This document shows, piece after piece, positions 2,218 to 14,728 of a stretch of 35,330 nucleotides of DNA; within the stretch, counting starts at the first letter, position 1, and each line of letters opens with the position of its first letter. The notes beneath the pieces are model-generated. The model did no database searches. It saw nothing but the letters and a program-made list of their open reading frames with translations, and was not told the DNA's origin. The DNA comes from a virus. Location: positions 1 to 35,330 of the IMG/VR virus record IMGVR_UViG_3300031857_000655. One strand, written 5' to 3'. The position numbers and the translations under genes were made by a program.

Positions 2218-2634
2218 ATGACCAAAGTTTTTGTTAACGGCACTTTTGATATTATACATTCTGGTCATCTATACTTATTAAGCTACGCTAAAAGGTTAGG
2301 TGACCATTTACTTGTAGCGCTAGATAGTGACGACAGAATTCGATCTAAAAAAGGCGATTCTCGACCTGTAAATAATGCAAATACTAGAATCCATATTATG
2401 TCTAGTTTTAAATTTGTTGATGGCGTTAACATGTTTAATAGCGACGATGAATTAGTTCGTATTATACAAAACTACTCTCCTGATATAATGGTGGTCGGAT
2501 CTGATTGGCGCAATAAACCAGTTATAGGCAGTGAATACGCAAAACAGTTAATATTCTTTGATAGAATAGAAGATTTATCTACTACTAATACGTTAAATAA
2601 GTACTTGAGTAGTATAAGAGAGAATAATATATGA
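2218..2634 (+). CDS. hldE-C-like: Nucleotidyltransferase, heptose-1-phosphate adenylyltransferase (HldE C-terminal)-like
   Basis: A 138-residue single-domain cytidylyltransferase-fold enzyme. VNGTFDIIHSGH places the HxGH nucleotide-binding motif at residues 14-17; KKGDSRPVN at 44-52 is the signature of the C-terminal half of HldE (and stand-alone RfaE2), which joins ATP to heptose 1-phosphate to make ADP-heptose; STTNTL at 121-126 is the closing motif. Glycerol-3-phosphate cytidylyltransferases share the HxGH but lack KGDSRPVN. The N-terminal kinase half of HldE is not present here, so the phage would need a kinase encoded upstream of the window or the host's. It has its own promoter and leader, and its stop overlaps the start of the fibre gene (ATGA), so sugar activation and fibre genes share a transcript. 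Confidence 0.82.
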   Translation: MTKVFVNGTFDIIHSGHLYLLSYAKRLGDHLLVALDSDDRIRSKKGDSRPVNNANTRIHIMSSFKFVDGVNMFNSDDELVRIIQNYSPDIMVVGSDWRNKPVIGSEYAKQLIFFDRIEDLSTTNTLNKYLSSIRENNI

Positions 2635-5234
2635 GTAATACCTTTTCAACTCCTTCAGTAGTTACTACTATATCACAAAGTAGATTAGACTATAACGAGG
2701 CTTTGTTATCACTACTACAAAATTTTGCTAGTGCTGGACAGCCTTCTGGCGCAGAAATAAATTCTGATGGAACTACTGGACTGCGTACCGGTATGTTCTG
2801 GTATAAAAGCGGAGCTGATACTGCTGACGGTCAAGGCCGTATGCTAGTATACAATGGTGCAGAATTTACTAGAAACGGTTTAGCAGTTTATAAAATGCCT
2901 AGTTTAGTTGCCGCTAATGCGGCAGCAGTAGCTACAAAAATTTCTTACGGCGAACTAGTATCTGTAGGTAGTGACGCACTGTATATGGTAAATGCTGCTA
3001 ATAACGGCGTATTTCAAGTTGGTGGAGATGCTATAACTCTTTCTGGTTTGACATCTGGTCAATTTGTTCGTACAGATACAAGCTCTACTATAACAGGCAA
3101 TGTAACTTTTAGTGGAACTGGCTTTGTTAAACTGCCTCTAGGTAACGATTCTCAGCGACCTGGAACTCCTGCTCCTGGTATGCTTAGATTTAGTAATACT
3201 AGTGGGTCTTTTGAAGGTTATGACGGAACTGAGTGGGGTGAAATTGGCGGTGGCGGAGCATTTACAGATGACGGCACCTATGTGTTCTATACCGGCTCAG
3301 CTAACGTAGGTATAGGAGTTGCAGCACCGCAAGCTAATCTTCATATTAAAGGCACTGGAAATGTGCTAAGACTTGAAACTGGTACACTAACTGATGCTAA
3401 TGGTGTAGCTATTAGATTTCAACAAAGTGATACTACTATTACAAATGGACAAGGTTATGGAGCTATTGAATGGTCTGGCGCCGATACAGGTAATGATGGA
3501 GTTCGTGGTTATATAAAAGGAGTTGCTGAAGGCGATACTGGCGAGTTTGCAGTTAGAATAGGTACTCAATCATCAGGTGCTAGTGCTCCAACCGATAGAA
3601 TTACTGTAGACAGTGCTGGCAGGGTAGGTATTGGTACAGTCTCACCAAACGTAACACTACAAGTAGCTGGTAACGTTCATTTATCTGGAGGTGATGCTAC
3701 AATATTCAATAGAAGCAATAATTATTTAGCTTTAGGAGCTAACAATATTGAGGCTATTAGAATACTTCCTAATACTAATATTGGCATAGGAGTTACAGCT
3801 CCGACTGCCAATCTTCATATTGCCGGTGCAGGTTCTGTACTTAAGTTACAAACTGCCACAGCTACTGATAGCACTGGAGTTAGTTTACAATTAGTTCAAA
3901 CCGACACTACTATAATTTCCGGTCAAGGATATGGCGGAGTTGAATGGTTTGGTCTTGACGCATCTGGTACTGGAGTGCGTGGATACATCAAAGGCTTTGC
4001 AGAAGGCGATAGCGGAGAGTTTGGTATTAGGATTGCTACACAAGCTACTGGTATTAGTTCTCCTGTAGATCGAGTTTATGTATCTAATACAGGTAGCGTT
4101 GGTATAGGAGTTGCTGCTCCAACGTCTACACTAGATGTAAATGGCGCTGTTACTGCCTTGTTATATTCTGGAGATGGTGGAGGTTTAAGCAATCTAGTAA
4201 ATGCTTATGCTAATGACGGAGTTACGCTAGCAACTGCACGCGGTAATGACCATGCAACGCTACTTAGTGCTCAGTCTAATGACTATGCTACTTATCTTAC
4301 TCTTTCAGCTAACGATGGAGTTACGATAGCAACTGCACGAGGAAACGACCATACCACACTTCTTAGTGCTCAGTCTAATGACTTTGCTACCTTTAACTTT
4401 GCTAGATCTAATGACTACGCTACTTTGCTTAGCGCTCAAAGCAATGACGGAGCTACCTTACTTACAGCTCGTTCTAATGATTGGGCTACGCTACTATCAG
4501 CTCAAAGCAATGATGGAGCTACACTACTAACAGCACGCTCTAACGACTGGGCTACCTATACCACATTAGCTGCTAACGATTATAACACTTTATTAAGTGC
4601 ATACAGCAATGATTTAGTTACTCTAAATTCAGCTCGTGCTAACGATTTAGTTACTTTTAACTCAGCTCGTGCTAATGACTATAGTACATATACCACTTTA
4701 GTAACTACTATAAATGATTTAGATGCTAGATTCTTGCGTAGTAATGCAGCGGCTATTAAAGCTACTGGTGATCTAAAACTAAATGATAACATTCAGCTTA
4801 ATATAGGTACTGATAACGACGTTGAACATTATTTTAATGGAACTGATTATTATACTGATATTAATGTAGGAGCTAATTGGTTCTTAAGAGATGGTGATAG
4901 CGCTAATGCTACACGATTTACTTTTGATATAGATACCGGTAACTTTACTGCTACAGGGGATGTAGCAGCATTCTCAGATGCTAGACTAAAATCAAATATA
5001 CACACATATCAAAACGCTTTAGCTACTGTACAACAACTACGAGGAGTTAGGTATGAAAGAAATAACAAATTTAATATTGGTGTTATAGCTCAAGAAGTTC
5101 AGGCTATCCTACCTGAAGTAGTTAATACTGATAATGAATACTTAGCTGTAGCCTATGGAAATATCATTGCAGTATTAATTGAAGCAATAAAAGAACTAAG
5201 CTTAAAGATTGAAAAGTTAGAAAAAGGTAAGTAA
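2631..5234 (+). CDS. Tail fibre/spike with hendecad stalk and C-terminal S74 intramolecular chaperone
   Basis: An 867-residue receptor-binding-type structural protein. Residues 1-220 are a Gly/Ser/Thr-rich attachment and shaft region. Two gap-free 106-residue copies of a beta-rich module beginning N(V/I)GIGVxAP lie at about 225-330 and 383-488. Residues 528-692 are fifteen 11-residue units of the form NDxxTxxxAxx, predicted to form a trimeric right-handed coiled stalk. The last part has FSDARLKSNI (S782, K787), the hallmark of the S74 peptidase/endosialidase-type chaperone; in this family the released C-terminal domain (here about 85 residues) is cut off at the serine after trimer folding. 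The ATG overlaps the preceding stop. The head-proximal partner and receptor are unknown; it could equally be a side fibre or a central spike accessory. Confidence 0.85.
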   Translation: MSNTFSTPSVVTTISQSRLDYNEALLSLLQNFASAGQPSGAEINSDGTTGLRTGMFWYKSGADTADGQGRMLVYNGAEFTRNGLAVYKMPSLVAANAAAVATKISYGELVSVGSDALYMVNAANNGVFQVGGDAITLSGLTSGQFVRTDTSSTITGNVTFSGTGFVKLPLGNDSQRPGTPAPGMLRFSNTSGSFEGYDGTEWGEIGGGGAFTDDGTYVFYTGSANVGIGVAAPQANLHIKGTGNVLRLETGTLTDANGVAIRFQQSDTTITNGQGYGAIEWSGADTGNDGVRGYIKGVAEGDTGEFAVRIGTQSSGASAPTDRITVDSAGRVGIGTVSPNVTLQVAGNVHLSGGDATIFNRSNNYLALGANNIEAIRILPNTNIGIGVTAPTANLHIAGAGSVLKLQTATATDSTGVSLQLVQTDTTIISGQGYGGVEWFGLDASGTGVRGYIKGFAEGDSGEFGIRIATQATGISSPVDRVYVSNTGSVGIGVAAPTSTLDVNGAVTALLYSGDGGGLSNLVNAYANDGVTLATARGNDHATLLSAQSNDYATYLTLSANDGVTIATARGNDHTTLLSAQSNDFATFNFARSNDYATLLSAQSNDGATLLTARSNDWATLLSAQSNDGATLLTARSNDWATYTTLAANDYNTLLSAYSNDLVTLNSARANDLVTFNSARANDYSTYTTLVTTINDLDARFLRSNAAAIKATGDLKLNDNIQLNIGTDNDVEHYFNGTDYYTDINVGANWFLRDGDSANATRFTFDIDTGNFTATGDVAAFSDARLKSNIHTYQNALATVQQLRGVRYERNNKFNIGVIAQEVQAILPEVVNTDNEYLAVAYGNIIAVLIEAIKELSLKIEKLEKGK
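4212..4706 (+). repeat. 15-unit 33-bp tandem repeat coding a hendecad stalk in the tail fibre
   Basis: Fifteen in-frame units of 33 bases, each coding an 11-residue NDxxTxxxAxx block (for example NDGATLLTARS, NDWATLLSAQS, NDHATLLSAQS). Units 8 and 10 are identical in protein (NDGATLLTARS) although their DNA differs by silent changes. Eleven residues per three helical turns gives a right-handed coiled coil; Asn-Asp at a fixed phase and hydrophobic L/A positions suit a trimer core. This is coding sequence, not a CRISPR array. Confidence 0.88.
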
Positions 5235-8157: not shown

Positions 8158-8186
8158 TTGACTATTCCGAACATTAGACTTATAAT
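8158..8186 (+). promoter_or_regulatory. Near-consensus sigma-70 promoter ahead of the HNH gene
   Basis: TTGACT at 8158-8163, exactly 17 bases, then TATAAT at 8181-8186, the best promoter match in the window. It lies in the 87-base gap between terminase and HNH genes, so transcription would start near 8193 and run into HNH, portal, protease and capsid. The -35 context TATTTTGACTA is nearly the same as at 2151-2160. Confidence 0.75.
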
Positions 8187-8596: not shown

Positions 8597-9844
8597 ATGG
8601 CAAGAGGCCCACTAGGTTGGATTGTAGAAAAGTTAAATCCTGTTCAGCCCTACATACAAAGTAGACAACCTTTTGCTATGCCTGAGTCTAATGTAGACTT
8701 TAGAGCTGCATACGATCAAATAGAAGTAGTACACCGCGCAGTAGACATGGTTGTTAGTGCATGTGTGGAAATACCTTTTGATATTGCAGGCGAAGGTCCG
8801 ATTAAAAAAATAAGCAAGCTACTTAACGACAGACCTAATCCTTTTGAAGATAGAGTTAAGCTGCTAAGAAGAGCATATTTTGATTTACTAATGGACGGTA
8901 ATGCTTTCTTTTACTATGATGGCACACACATATATGTTCTTCCAGCTAACGATGTTCAAGTTGTATCAGATCCAAAAACTTTTATTAAAGGATATACATT
9001 CTTAATTCATGGCGGTGGTTTATCATCTTATAATTCTGGGCGACAGTCAAAAGAGACTGTGATAGAATTTGGCGCTAACGAAATAATTCACATCAAAGAA
9101 GATAACGACGAAAGTATTTTTAGAGGCAAATCTAGAATAAAAAGCATAGGAAATATAATTAATATTTATAATGCTTTGTTAAAGTTTCAACGTCAATTCT
9201 TTAAGAATAACGCAGTACCTGGAGTGGTATTAACCACAGAAGCTGTTTTAAATACTAAAATAAAAGAAAGACTACTTCAAAGCTGGAGAAATTCTTACGC
9301 TACTATATTTGAAGGCGCTAGAAGTCCAGCTATTTTAGATGGCGGTCTTAAAATAGATAAGTTTAGCGAAATAAACTTTCAAAGTTTAGATTTCGAAGCA
9401 AGCATAGAAAGACTTGAGCAAGATATGGCCAAAGCAATTGGCGTACCTTATGTGTTAATGAAGAGTGGTAATAACGCCAACATAGCCGCTAATCAAGTTT
9501 TATTTTATGAGCATACCGTACTTCCTATAGTACTTATGTTTGCCAGTGCTTTTGCACACTACTTTAACTCTGTTAGAATAAATCCAGATAGAACTGTAAT
9601 CACTGCTTTACAACCAGACTTGAGAACTCAAAGTCAATATTATGTAAGTTTAGTTAATGCAGGTATTATATCAGCTGATGAAGCAAGATTAAAGCTTGGG
9701 TTTAGTACTTTAAACACACCAGAAACTTCTAATATCAGAGTACCACAAAACATAACTGGAAGCGCTGTTCAACCTGATACAGGCGGTAGACCTACTAATG
9801 AAGAAGTAGATACACTACCTGAAGACAGTGTTTCTATTAACTAA
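8597..9844 (+). CDS. Portal protein (HK97 type)
   Basis: A 415-residue portal subunit, forming the dodecameric ring at the unique capsid vertex that binds terminase and then the tail. Seen in sequence: an early helical segment AYDQIEVVHRAVDMV, the conserved RPNPFEDRVKLLRRAYFDLLMDGNAFFYY stretch (residues 76-104 approximately), the IIHIKEDN segment, the FQRQFFKNNAVPGVVLTTE stretch and QDMAKAIGVPYVL, all typical of the Phage_portal family; its length is usual for HK97 portals. The start directly follows the HNH stop and has GGAGAT upstream. The C-terminal 35 residues are polar and likely flexible. The protease-capsid gene follows after 13 bases. Confidence 0.92.
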   Translation: MARGPLGWIVEKLNPVQPYIQSRQPFAMPESNVDFRAAYDQIEVVHRAVDMVVSACVEIPFDIAGEGPIKKISKLLNDRPNPFEDRVKLLRRAYFDLLMDGNAFFYYDGTHIYVLPANDVQVVSDPKTFIKGYTFLIHGGGLSSYNSGRQSKETVIEFGANEIIHIKEDNDESIFRGKSRIKSIGNIINIYNALLKFQRQFFKNNAVPGVVLTTEAVLNTKIKERLLQSWRNSYATIFEGARSPAILDGGLKIDKFSEINFQSLDFEASIERLEQDMAKAIGVPYVLMKSGNNANIAANQVLFYEHTVLPIVLMFASAFAHYFNSVRINPDRTVITALQPDLRTQSQYYVSLVNAGIISADEARLKLGFSTLNTPETSNIRVPQNITGSAVQPDTGGRPTNEEVDTLPEDSVSIN

Positions 9845-9857
9845 GGAGCAAGCAAAT

Positions 9858-12431
9858 ATGGATAAAACATTTTTTATCACTACAGATGACATTCAAAAGA
9901 GTGCCAAAAGTAGTGACAAAACTTTAAGAATTGCTGGCTACGCTAATACAACTAGTAAAGATAGATCTGGAGATATTGTACTACCAGAAGCTTGGGCTAA
10001 AGGTGTAGAAAACTTCCGCAGAAATCCTATTTTACTTTATCAGCACGATCACGGTAAACCTATCGGTAGAGTTAGTGCTGTTACAGTAGATAAAAAAGGT
10101 ATTTTTGTTGAAGCTAGTATTAGTGAGGCTGCAGAACGTCAACACGGAGTTAAAACTCTTATTAATGATGGCGTGTTAAAAAGTTTTAGTGTTGGTTTCA
10201 GAATTAAGGATGCTAAATATGATAAATTAGCTGATACTTTCTATATCAAAGATGTAGAGCTATTAGAAATTTCTGTAGTTAGTGTTCCTGCAAACCAAAA
10301 TTCTTTATTCTCTGTACGCAAAACTTTTGAAGACGAAGCAGACTATGCTAAATTCAAAGATCAATTTGCAGACGATAATAAAGCCTCAGTAGAAGAATCA
10401 GCTGTTAAAGAGCTTGAAGCTACTGAAATCAAAGCCGCAGAAGATGAAGCTGAAGAAGAGTCTACCTTTGTAGAATCTGATCCTATGAAGCTAATTCCTT
10501 TTGTAAACCTTTTAAATGCAGACACTTCTAAAATCACAACTAAATCTTTTGTAGTTATTGATAAAGTTCGTTATAAAACTTCAGAAATTGCTACTGCAGA
10601 GAGCCCAGAATTTACTTTTGAAGAGTGTGACATATCAGGAAATCTAACTGGAAAATCTATTAAAGTACCAGCTATCGATATCACTGTTATTAATGCTTGG
10701 GATCTTGAAAAAGAATACGATATACTATTAAATATTACTAAAACACAAACACTAAACGACGAAGAGAAAGTTAGAGTAATTGGTAAGTTTAAAACTCTTA
10801 TTAATTCAAATGAGCTAGATCTTATTCAATTAAAGAATGATTCCGAACTAGCTTCAAATGCAAAGCTACAAAGAGCTTTAAATGATTCTATCAATCTCAT
10901 GAGTCAAAATTATACTGAATGGAATGACTCTCATTTCAACTTAGCTTACAAAAGCTGTATGGTTATTGAGACGCTAAAGCAGATCCCGGCGGATAGTAAC
11001 AGGGATCTAATGCTAAAAGTATATGGCCATAATATACAAAACACTCTAGAGGAGAAAAGAACTATGACTACTGAAAATGTAGGTGAACCAATGAAGATCG
11101 ATACAAAATCTACTGCAACTGAATCAGTTGCTAGAGTATCAGAACCTCGCGTAGCCCAACTAGTTGAAAAAGCTGGTGAGGCTATCATCAAAGCAGAAGC
11201 TGCTGAGTATAGAGCTCAAGAAACAAACTCTGCTCCAGATCCTCGCGTTATGGAAGAACTAGCTGAACTTAAAGGTCAACTAAAAGCTTATCGCGAGCAA
11301 GTAGGTGCAATGCAAACAAGCAAAATGCACTATCAGGAAAGCACTAGAACTAATGCTCAGTTCTCTGACGCAGAAAAGTCTAATGCAGTGTTCCTAGCAC
11401 GCGCCCTAAACAAGCGTGACATGTTTGACACTAGACTAGGTGATCGTATGAAAGCTGTTCTAACTGACGGCAATCTAAACGAAGCATTTAGCACTAACGT
11501 GTACAACGAAATGCAACAACAACTAGTTATTGCTCCAATGTTTAACCGCATTGATGTAAATAGCAAAGACTTCCGTATTCCAGTAGCCGACGAAGACGGT
11601 TCAGATTTCGTAGCACAATTCCCAAGCGGTTCATTCGCAGCAGGAGTTAACGATTCTACTACTGTACCAACATCTCGTCAAGCTCAAATTGGTGCTGTAA
11701 CTCTAAGCCCTAAAAAGTTCATGGTTGCGACACACATTGCCAAAGACGAAGAAGAAGATACAATTCTTCCACTTATCGACTTCCTACGCCAAGCTGCTAC
11801 TCGTCGCTTAGCTCGTGGTATCGACAAGGCTCTTCTACGTGGTAACGGCTCTCTAAGCGCATTCTCTGCTTCTAACACTCTAACTGCAGCTGGAGCATAT
11901 CCATCTGTTATTAAGGGTCTTGTAGAGCACGCTGCTGCTGTTAACGCTCTAGTTACTAAAACCGGAACAACAATTGATAAAGCAGATCCAGGTGATATCG
12001 CTGCTGCTCGCCTAACTCTAGGTAAGTACGGTCTATCTCTAGGTTCTAACCTAGCATATGTTACTTCTGTAGAAGGTTATAATAACCTAGTAACTAACAC
12101 TGATTTCCAAACTGTAGATAAGTTCGGTGCTCAAGCTACTTACCTAACTGGTAGCGTAGGTGCTGTATACGGTATTCCAATTTTCATCTCTGAATTCATG
12201 GACACCGCTTCTGCAGCTGACTCTAACCTAGGTATCCTAGTTTATAAGCCAGGATTCATTATCGGTGAGCGTCGTTCAATGGAAATTGAAAGCGAATACC
12301 TACCACAACAACAAGTAACTGCAATGTACCTAAGCACTCGTATGGACTTCCAAGCCTTAACAACTGTTTCACAGGCTGCATTAAGTGCTCGTTATTCTTA
12401 CGCAGGTCTAATTACTACTGCAAGCTCATAA
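9858..12431 (+). CDS. Prohead protease fused to HK97-fold major capsid protein
   Basis: An 857-residue fusion. I place the start at the ATG 9858 because AAGGAG sits ten bases upstream; a GTG-type start 30 bases earlier would overlap portal. Residues 1-155 are an HK97 (U35) serine protease: YQHDHGKPIGRV supplies H63/H65, LKSFSVGFR supplies S109/S111, and ELLEISVVSVPAN supplies E137. Residues 156-402 are acidic and of unknown role. From residue 403 (MTTENVGEP) comes a coiled-coil delta-like region to about 510, then the HK97 capsid fold (FRIPVADEDGSDFVAQFPSG, IAKDEEEDT, GILVYKPGFIIGERRSMEIE). A strong internal ribosome site and ATG at 11064 can give a separate 455-residue capsid protein. Fused protease-capsid genes are known but uncommon. 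The capsid part also changes codon use. Confidence 0.92.
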   Translation: MDKTFFITTDDIQKSAKSSDKTLRIAGYANTTSKDRSGDIVLPEAWAKGVENFRRNPILLYQHDHGKPIGRVSAVTVDKKGIFVEASISEAAERQHGVKTLINDGVLKSFSVGFRIKDAKYDKLADTFYIKDVELLEISVVSVPANQNSLFSVRKTFEDEADYAKFKDQFADDNKASVEESAVKELEATEIKAAEDEAEEESTFVESDPMKLIPFVNLLNADTSKITTKSFVVIDKVRYKTSEIATAESPEFTFEECDISGNLTGKSIKVPAIDITVINAWDLEKEYDILLNITKTQTLNDEEKVRVIGKFKTLINSNELDLIQLKNDSELASNAKLQRALNDSINLMSQNYTEWNDSHFNLAYKSCMVIETLKQIPADSNRDLMLKVYGHNIQNTLEEKRTMTTENVGEPMKIDTKSTATESVARVSEPRVAQLVEKAGEAIIKAEAAEYRAQETNSAPDPRVMEELAELKGQLKAYREQVGAMQTSKMHYQESTRTNAQFSDAEKSNAVFLARALNKRDMFDTRLGDRMKAVLTDGNLNEAFSTNVYNEMQQQLVIAPMFNRIDVNSKDFRIPVADEDGSDFVAQFPSGSFAAGVNDSTTVPTSRQAQIGAVTLSPKKFMVATHIAKDEEEDTILPLIDFLRQAATRRLARGIDKALLRGNGSLSAFSASNTLTAAGAYPSVIKGLVEHAAAVNALVTKTGTTIDKADPGDIAAARLTLGKYGLSLGSNLAYVTSVEGYNNLVTNTDFQTVDKFGAQATYLTGSVGAVYGIPIFISEFMDTASAADSNLGILVYKPGFIIGERRSMEIESEYLPQQQVTAMYLSTRMDFQALTTVSQAALSARYSYAGLITTASS
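11048..11066 (+). promoter_or_regulatory. Internal ribosome binding site and ATG for the capsid protein alone
   Basis: AGAGGAG at 11048-11054 lies nine bases before an in-frame ATG at 11064-11066 inside the protease-capsid gene. It is among the strongest Shine-Dalgarno matches in the window. Initiation here yields residues 403-857 of the fusion, i.e. delta-like region plus capsid fold (455 residues), a normal size for an HK97 capsid precursor. Codon use becomes richer in AAC, TTC, CTA and CGT soon after. A nested arrangement would supply capsid in large excess over protease. Confidence 0.75.
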
Positions 12432-12463: not shown

Positions 12464-12486
12464 GGGGGAGGGCTGAGCCCTCCCCC
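12464..12486 (+). terminator. Perfect GC-rich hairpin after the capsid gene
   Basis: GGGGGAGGGC at 12464-12473 and GCCCTCCCCC at 12477-12486 form a flawless 10-bp stem with a TGA loop, 32 bases after the capsid stop. In a genome this AT-rich it stands out strongly. The following TATTTACTAT is only weakly T-rich, so it may be a partial terminator or a 3' end that protects the abundant capsid message. Confidence 0.78.
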
Positions 12487-13224: not shown

Positions 13225-13476
13225 ATGGCTAGACTCCAGTATATCACTTTTGATATGGAGTTTAGAGAATACACTTCCACAGGTAACTCTTTTAGTGGCG
13301 CTTATAACTTTTTTAGTTTAGAAGATATAGAGGCTCACAAAGAGAAGTCTGAAAGATATAAACAGATAGAAGCTTGGAATATAAAACATGCTAGCTTTAG
13401 GGATGCGTCCCCAATAAGACTTACTACGCATTCTATAGTGAAGAATTTGGAGAAATTAGATGGCGAACTTAGTTAG
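13225..13476 (+). CDS. Small neck-region protein of unknown function
   Basis: An 83-residue protein. I use the ATG at 13225, one base after the preceding stop, giving MARLQYITFDMEF; earlier in-frame ATGs at 13192 and 13213 overlap the glycosyltransferase gene and have no better ribosome site. The sequence is mixed charged (EDIEAHKEKSERYKQIEAW) with a probable central helix and no motif I recognise. Its stop overlaps the next start by 17 bases, so expression is likely coupled. In this position HK97-like phages often carry small head or capsid-accessory proteins, but nothing in the sequence proves that. Confidence 0.6.
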   Translation: MARLQYITFDMEFREYTSTGNSFSGAYNFFSLEDIEAHKEKSERYKQIEAWNIKHASFRDASPIRLTTHSIVKNLEKLDGELS

Positions 13477-14728
13477 TTTAGCAGAAATAAAAGACTTTTT
13501 AGTAATAAAAGTTATTAATACCGATGAAGATGGTCGTTTAGCTAATATTGCTACCCAAGTTAGTTCTCTAGTAGAGTCTTATTGTGGAAGAATATTTGCA
13601 GCAAATAATTATACAGAATACTTTGATGGCGGAATATCATCAGTATTTGTGGCTTACCCACCTCTAAATAGGGTAGATGAAGTATCACATTTTGATGGAA
13701 AAGACTATGTAATTTTAGGCGGGCCAGGAGTTAATGGTGAGCCTATAATAACAGATGGCACTTCTCATAGCATTACTAATGTGGGAAATCCCGTACTAAG
13801 TACTCGCGTTAAAAAGTTTAATAGATCTAGTTTAAAGTTAGACGGTAGTAGTTATGTCCAGACAGATTCTACAGAAGATTGGAACTTTGGAGTTGATCCT
13901 TTTACTATAGAAACGCAAGTTAGACTTGATAATGTTGCCTCGTCACATACTATAGCTTCTAGCGGGTTAATAGCTAATAATAGTCATTGGCAGTTTGAAG
14001 TTGATTTAATAAATGGCGCTCAATTTAGAGTTATAGAAAATAACATTGTAAAGATAAATGTTTCTCAAGGTTCTAATACAGGGTATAGTGCCAATCAATT
14101 CTACCATATGGCAATAGTTAGAGACAACACTACAATTAAAATATATAGAAATGGAACTAGCATAGCATCGTTAACCACAGCTAACTCAATACCTAATTTT
14201 AATAATGGCATATTTGTTGGTAGCGGCACACATAGTTTGACTGGATATCTAGACGATTTTAAGATTAGCCATATAGCAGAATATACCTCTAACTTTACTG
14301 CTCCTACATACCCTACTAGAATAGACGAAAATACTAAACTAATGCTTCGTTTTGATGGGGCGAATAACACAAATGTTATAGCTGATGTATCTAGACGAGT
14401 TAATCAGTTTAGTTTCTATCCAGTAACTGGTGAAATAACTTTTAATACTGGAAATGGCGGCGGAACAGAAGCGCTTGGATTCTTTAGGCCTCTTAAGTTT
14501 TATAACTATCCTAAAGGAGTTAAAGTTACTTATAATGGGGGATACACTACAATACCTAGCGATTTAAAGCTAGCTACGCTTGAAATGGTAAAAGTTATAT
14601 ATAAAGGCAGATCGGGTAGCGAGAGTGTTAGAATGCAGGGAGAAGATATTAGCAGCCATAAGCTGTCACTAGATGGGTTCCCGCCACAAGTTAGAAGAGT
14701 TTTAAATCTATACAGGTTGATTGAATAA
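13460..14728 (+). CDS. Head-tail connector (gp6-like) with inserted LamG lectin-like domain
   Basis: A 422-residue protein, about four times the usual connector. Residues 1-75 (LVSLAEIKDFL, IATQVSSLVESYCGRIF, YTEYFDGG) match the N-terminus of gp6-like connectors that sit below the portal; residues 318-422 (FYPVTGEITF, VKVTYNGGYTTIPSDLKLATLEMV) match their C-terminal half. Between them, about 90-310, lies a concanavalin/LamG fold: SSLKLDGSSYVQTDS, WNFGVDPFTIETQVRLDN, GYLDDFKISHIAEYTSNFT and TKLMLRFDG. Such domains bind carbohydrate or protein and are usual in fibres and decoration proteins, not in connectors. GGAGA lies six bases upstream of the ATG. The insert should project from the neck ring; its ligand is unknown. 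Confidence 0.85.
   Translation: MANLVSLAEIKDFLVIKVINTDEDGRLANIATQVSSLVESYCGRIFAANNYTEYFDGGISSVFVAYPPLNRVDEVSHFDGKDYVILGGPGVNGEPIITDGTSHSITNVGNPVLSTRVKKFNRSSLKLDGSSYVQTDSTEDWNFGVDPFTIETQVRLDNVASSHTIASSGLIANNSHWQFEVDLINGAQFRVIENNIVKINVSQGSNTGYSANQFYHMAIVRDNTTIKIYRNGTSIASLTTANSIPNFNNGIFVGSGTHSLTGYLDDFKISHIAEYTSNFTAPTYPTRIDENTKLMLRFDGANNTNVIADVSRRVNQFSFYPVTGEITFNTGNGGGTEALGFFRPLKFYNYPKGVKVTYNGGYTTIPSDLKLATLEMVKVIYKGRSGSESVRMQGEDISSHKLSLDGFPPQVRRVLNLYRLIE

Follow-up and report, generated by a model that had tools for sequence, protein, structure and literature searches.

A conserved internal start is predicted to yield capsid protein alone from a protease–capsid fusion gene of a T5-related marine phage

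The window analysed here, a 35,330-nucleotide stretch of viral DNA (IMG/VR record IMGVR_UViG_3300031857_000655), belongs to a marine tailed phage related to coliphage T5, and it contains a protease–capsid fusion gene that very probably gives rise to two products from one mRNA by dual initiation. A minor 857-residue fusion would deliver the maturation protease and a major 455-residue product would be the capsid precursor, which would be cut after Lys532. The assembly of a phage head calls for hundreds of capsid subunits and few proteases, and a fusion of the two seems to force a 1:1 ratio; an internal start under selection would resolve this.

The gene is a single ATG-to-TAA frame on the plus strand (positions 9858–12431) that translates into 857 residues. 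It had originally been predicted to join a protease, a linker and a capsid protein in one frame, and the domain matches agree, with an S78 protease at residues 16–153 and an HK97-type coat at residues 541–832 (Table 1). The protease domain lies above the curated cut-offs of TIGR01543 (78 bits, cut-off 59) and PF04586 (74 bits, cut-off 21), and the coat scores 46.4 bits against PF05065 (cut-off 24.2) and 49.4 bits against TIGR01554 (cut-off 27.5). In the family alignment, His63/65, Ser109/111 and Glu134/137 of the protease are invariant, and the His, Ser and Glu are candidates for the active site, the catalytic assignment being by motif and not by structure. At the predicted boundary between the delta and coat domains, Lys532/Ala533 aligns with Lys159/Ala160 of T5, and R530, M531 and K532 are invariant in the family alignment. 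The AlphaFold model of the full-length protein was poor (mean pLDDT 47), so it was used for secondary structure only and the linker domain was predicted separately.

Table 1 Features of the fusion gene and its immediate surroundings, in window coordinates.
Feature	Positions	Strand	Basis
Shine-Dalgarno (SD) AAGGAG for the full-length fusion; overlaps the stop codon of the portal gene	9843–9848	+	Sequence; predicted anti-SD pairing −8.3 kcal/mol
Fusion ORF: protease, acidic linker, folded linker domain, delta domain, HK97 coat	9858–12431	+	Translation; single frame in all relatives spanning it
S78/HK97-type prohead protease domain, residues 16–153	9903–10316	+	PF04586 (1.9e-20), TIGR01543 (7.5e-22), family alignment
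Acidic, low-complexity, length-variable linker, residues 161–205	10338–10472	+	Family alignment; 18–30% identity to second clade
Conserved folded linker domain, residues 206–398 (~208–398)	10473–11051	+	AlphaFold2, mean pLDDT 85.8: small beta-barrel and helical bundle
Internal SD AGGAGA, at −14 from the internal ATG	11050–11055	+	116/116 distinct relatives; predicted anti-SD pairing −9.1 kcal/mol
Nested major capsid protein precursor (predicted), 455 aa from Met403	11064–12431	+	Length class in relatives with complete genes 451–478 aa; T5 pb8 458 aa
Delta (scaffold) domain, residues 403–532, mainly helical by prediction; predicted cut after Lys532	11064–11453	+	Alignment to T5
Mature HK97-fold coat protein (predicted), residues 533–857	11454–12428	+	PF05065; capsid chains of PDB 8ho3, 8zvi and 5tjt (E 5.8e-24 to 4.8e-23)
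GC-rich hairpin after the capsid stop	12464–12486	+	Strong; different sequences across clades, in relatives with inspected downstream sequence

Within the frame, the motif AGAGGAG (11048–11054) stands ahead of an in-frame ATG (11064–11066) that encodes Met403 and opens a product of 455 residues. Among the internal ATGs of the window gene, only this one has a strong and properly spaced SD. The site had been singled out in the original prediction at 11048–11066, and it is no chance occurrence, since each of the 116 distinct loci covering the junction has AGGAGA at exactly −14 relative to an in-frame ATG. These loci derive from IMG/VR scans that gave several hundred hits, many overlapping between scans, from which duplicates were removed; the one apparent exception (L011) is a case where the scan halted at an earlier ATG. 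The fused frame and the AGGAGA/−14/ATG arrangement hold down to 44% protein identity, in a relative without the helical half of the linker domain (L074), and the same arrangement is kept in a clade (L075–L090) with ~150 extra residues, including a His-rich stretch, between the protease and the linker domain.

The residues encoded beneath the SD vary (L-E-E-K in one clade and either K-E-N or K-E-K in other clades), yet the nucleotides are fixed, which indicates that the constraint acts on the DNA or RNA. When corrected for each gene's codon use, silent-site conservation at codons 391–411 is among the highest of the gene, and this is one of its two strongest stretches. The internal SD and start thus appear to be conserved by selection, as for a nested start of the C/Nu3 type. 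The SD-like sequence might instead act as a translational pause between the protease and capsid domains, or be a relic of an ancestral capsid gene, and not be an active start at all. Such ancestry is plausible, given that the capsid gene of the T5 group has its own start at the corresponding position. However, a relic would decay, and here the SD, the ATG and their exact spacing are fixed in every one of the 116 relatives, whereas a pause requires no ATG; of the readings considered, we give this one the least credence. The strongest silent-site constraint of the gene (z 23.7) lies in the coat domain around EEEDTIL (11748–11768, codons 631–637); an RNA element, or codons chosen for high expression, may lie behind it.

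The internal SD is predicted to pair more strongly than the upstream SD in 34/34 distinct pairs (mean −9.0 against −6.8 kcal/mol; Wilcoxon p 3.5e-7, a value that overstates the case because related sequences are not independent). The energies ignore mRNA structure and host and are not amounts, and in the window itself the upstream SD falls little short of the internal one (−8.3 against −9.1 kcal/mol), so the fusion need not be rare. The pattern of SD strengths would fit a minor fusion and a major capsid product. A small hairpin immediately before the SD, seen in some clades (GUAUAU/AUAUAC; CGGU/ACCG), was considered as a further element and rejected, as it is only weakly better than synonymous shuffles and is not evident in more distant clades.

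In the window's own clade, silent-site conservation reaches ~45 nt upstream of the ATG, and part of the silent-site constraint could have a role other than initiation. A stretch longer than an SD might be expected if capsid alone were made from a shorter mRNA, with a promoter inside the protease–linker region, as in herpesvirus UL26.5, and the same internal start. The internal SD and ATG would look identical under such a model, and there is a strong hairpin after the capsid gene. We consider this model improbable, however, as no promoter-like (sigma-70-like) pair of at least 10/12 occurs on the plus strand between 9858 and 11064, the strongest nearby pair (11/12) lies at 8158–8186, ahead of the portal gene, and the extended conserved stretch is absent from other clades. 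The GC-rich hairpin itself suggests a terminator or mRNA 3′ end, with a role in termination or mRNA stability.

Codon use had also been said to shift towards high expression after the internal start. We do see a difference overall, in that codon use before and after Met403 differs in the window gene (pooled chi-square p = 2.5e-5). In six relatives (L010–L013, L015 and L044) the change-point lies no more than a few codons from the internal start, with log Bayes factors of 3.6 to 28. By the same model, the switch at the start is not present in every relative, and in the window the change-point is diffuse and lies near codon 500 (support 453–511), where it does not beat a model of no change (log Bayes factor −0.4). 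The codon argument thus holds in part of the family but is weak in the window itself. In short, several observations support the proposal that an internal start yields capsid alone: the SD and start are invariant, silent sites are conserved, the internal SD is predicted to be the stronger one, codon use switches in relatives and the nested product has nearly the length of pb8.

There are also signs that the full-length product is made. Protease, linker and coat share one frame, with no stop between them, in all 80 distinct loci that are not cut by a contig end. The linker had been described only as unknown, but it is more than a mere spacer: the region is 31–46% identical to that of the second clade, residues 206–398 contain 28 invariant columns over 35 sequences, and the predicted fold is confident (Table 1). 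A linker that is conserved as a protein and predicted to be folded argues that the full-length product is also made. Selection for capsid alone is thus indicated by the invariance of the internal SD and ATG, and additional selection for the fusion by a frame that is open throughout and by the conserved linker.

The unbroken frame and the protein-level conservation of the linker, together with the T5-like cleavage site at Lys532, would equally be expected of a polyprotein, in which only the full-length fusion is made, all capsid protein arises by autocleavage, and the internal SD and ATG go unused. This would leave unexplained the invariant AGGAGA and ATG with fixed spacing over changing amino acids, as well as the silent-site constraint and the codon switch at that place in relatives, and it would put ~400 extra residues per subunit inside every prohead. 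We judge it very improbable.

No fold could be assigned to the linker domain, since Foldseek gave no match in the PDB at E below 0.07 and the best VIA-align Z was 5.1. Sequence searches of Pfam, PHROG and PDB gave no convincing family for it. Among viral structures, it matches best the prohead protease of the archaeal virus HSTV-2, but this match is marginal (E 5.8e-3, probability 1.00, TM 0.43) and found no support in an hhalign sequence comparison. The HSTV-2 protease appears to be gene 10 (386 aa), which is apart from the capsid gene. This marginal structural match hints that the linker domain may be an accessory domain of prohead proteases. Across a large group of aquatic T5-like phages, apparently uncultured, the fused protease is accompanied by this uncharacterised folded domain.

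We infer initiation at both sites, the ratio of products, their co-assembly and the cleavage site, and the following course of events is proposed for dual initiation. Ribosomes starting at 9858 would read through to give a small amount of the 857-residue protease–linker–capsid fusion, and those starting at the internal SD and ATG (11050–11066) would give a large amount of the 455-residue capsid precursor. Upstream ribosomes could interfere with internal initiation. As both products share the delta and coat domains they would co-assemble, and the fusion would carry the protease into the prohead, covalently joined to a delta domain. Cutting after Lys532, and probably at other sites too, the protease would next release itself and the scaffold, so that the same mature coat would be left from either product.

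The nearest annotated relatives of the window virus are T5-like phages in which protease and capsid are separate genes, as in T5 and Kamaji. In T5, pb11 (210 aa) and pb8 (458 aa) are encoded by genes that lie 17 nt apart, and the N-terminal scaffolding domain of the T5 head protein is cleaved off by the protease pb11 (PMC5292684). The head module of Escherichia phage T5 (Demerecviridae) resembles that of the window in its order of portal, protease, capsid and head completion genes, in the size of the capsid precursor and in the P1 Lys at the delta/coat boundary. A portal gene (8597–9844) precedes the fusion, and the downstream ORF 13460–14728 carries a T5-type head completion domain, which together indicate a T5-like head module. 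The coat match is above cut-off, as for a T5-type HK97-fold capsid with a delta domain. Unlike T5 and Kamaji, where two genes are separated by a stop and there is no linker domain, the window family has one fused frame, and so departs from the separate protease and capsid genes of the T5/Demerecviridae head module. Most simply, the fusion would have arisen from a T5-like gene pair whose intervening stop was lost and to which the linker domain was added.

The two matches in ORF 13460–14728 are weak and lie at its ends, a gp6-like connector at residues 6–50 (N-terminal) and the head completion domain at residues 354–419 (C-terminal). A LamG-like lectin domain (~128–271) is found between them, so a sugar-binding domain would sit at the neck. 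Elsewhere in the window, the 3908-residue ORF 18695–30421 matches tape-measure proteins in residues 34–445 only, and upstream of the terminase, at 2631–5234 and 1151–2059, lie genes for a protein that resembles tail fibres and ends in a Peptidase_S74 chaperone and for a nucleotide-sugar epimerase-like product. Scanning the window for Rfam families and for tRNAs gave nothing. The bacterial genomes searched gave distant protease matches only, and no host was indicated.

Protease–capsid fusions as such are already known, as in the NCBIfam family NF045541 ('prohead protease/major capsid protein fusion protein') and in Arthrobacter and Rhodobacter phages. The window gene is not a member of NF045541, against which it scores 45.7 bits (cut-off 525) through its protease part only. 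The coat profile of the window family scores T5 pb8 at 114 bits but fusions of the NF045541 type at 15 bits at most, and the protease profile scores T5 pb11 at 140 bits but those fusions at 28 bits at most. These scores favour the T5 proteins, and the predicted nested product of 455 residues is thus the counterpart of the complete pb8 precursor.

A set of 42 ORFs of the NF045541 type from Pseudomonadota genomes, distantly related to the window family, was examined for similar starts. These ORFs likewise encode a protease and an HK97-type coat in one frame, with an SD and start at the junction in part of the set. One junction column has a start codon preceded by an SD of at least 5 bases in 24/42 ORFs, compared with 6 in the next best column, and Met occurs at this column in 31/42. 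In contrast to the window family, no linker domain was detected and the SD spacing is not fixed. Prophage fusions in the set (L186, L190, L195, L198, L200 and others) have an SD and start at the junction. Among seven named fusion phages, the junction SD and start occur at this stringency in Rhodobacter RcKemmy and Stenotrophomonas S1 but not in the remaining five. The nested starts predicted for these two phages are Met215 in RcKemmy and Met207 in S1. In Dulem virus 34 the protease and capsid genes are apart, as expected if the fusion is the derived state. The nested-start device thus seems to recur without being universal, and the SD seems less uniform in this set than in the window family.

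Fused capsid–protease genes have been reported as unusual in Arthrobacter clusters AM, AU and AN and Rhodococcus RRH1 (PMC5513430) and in Rhodobacter cluster RcC (PMC8601537). The fusions are of the same kind, in the case of Arthrobacter by their description, and the passages of these accounts that present them discuss no nested start. In the open-licence literature, we found no published case of a nested start in a protease–capsid fusion. On balance, we lean slightly towards the view that nested capsid initiation is a general answer to protease–capsid fusion, with at least two origins (in the T5-like lineage and in the NF045541 prophage lineage), that the capsid start is misannotated in many fusions, and that covalent dosing of the protease as a minority product is widespread. 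Annotations of the main virion protein in fusion-type phages would then need a corrected start. Without any need for new chemistry, a nested start would turn an annotation oddity into a testable and probably recurrent way to dose the maturation protease.

Lambda C/Nu3 and herpesvirus UL26/UL26.5 have the same layout, in which the protease is N-terminal and the C-terminal part of the frame doubles as a nested gene for an abundant structural partner. The nested product of those systems is a scaffold that is later removed, whereas the nested product predicted for the window is the capsid protein itself, together with its delta domain.
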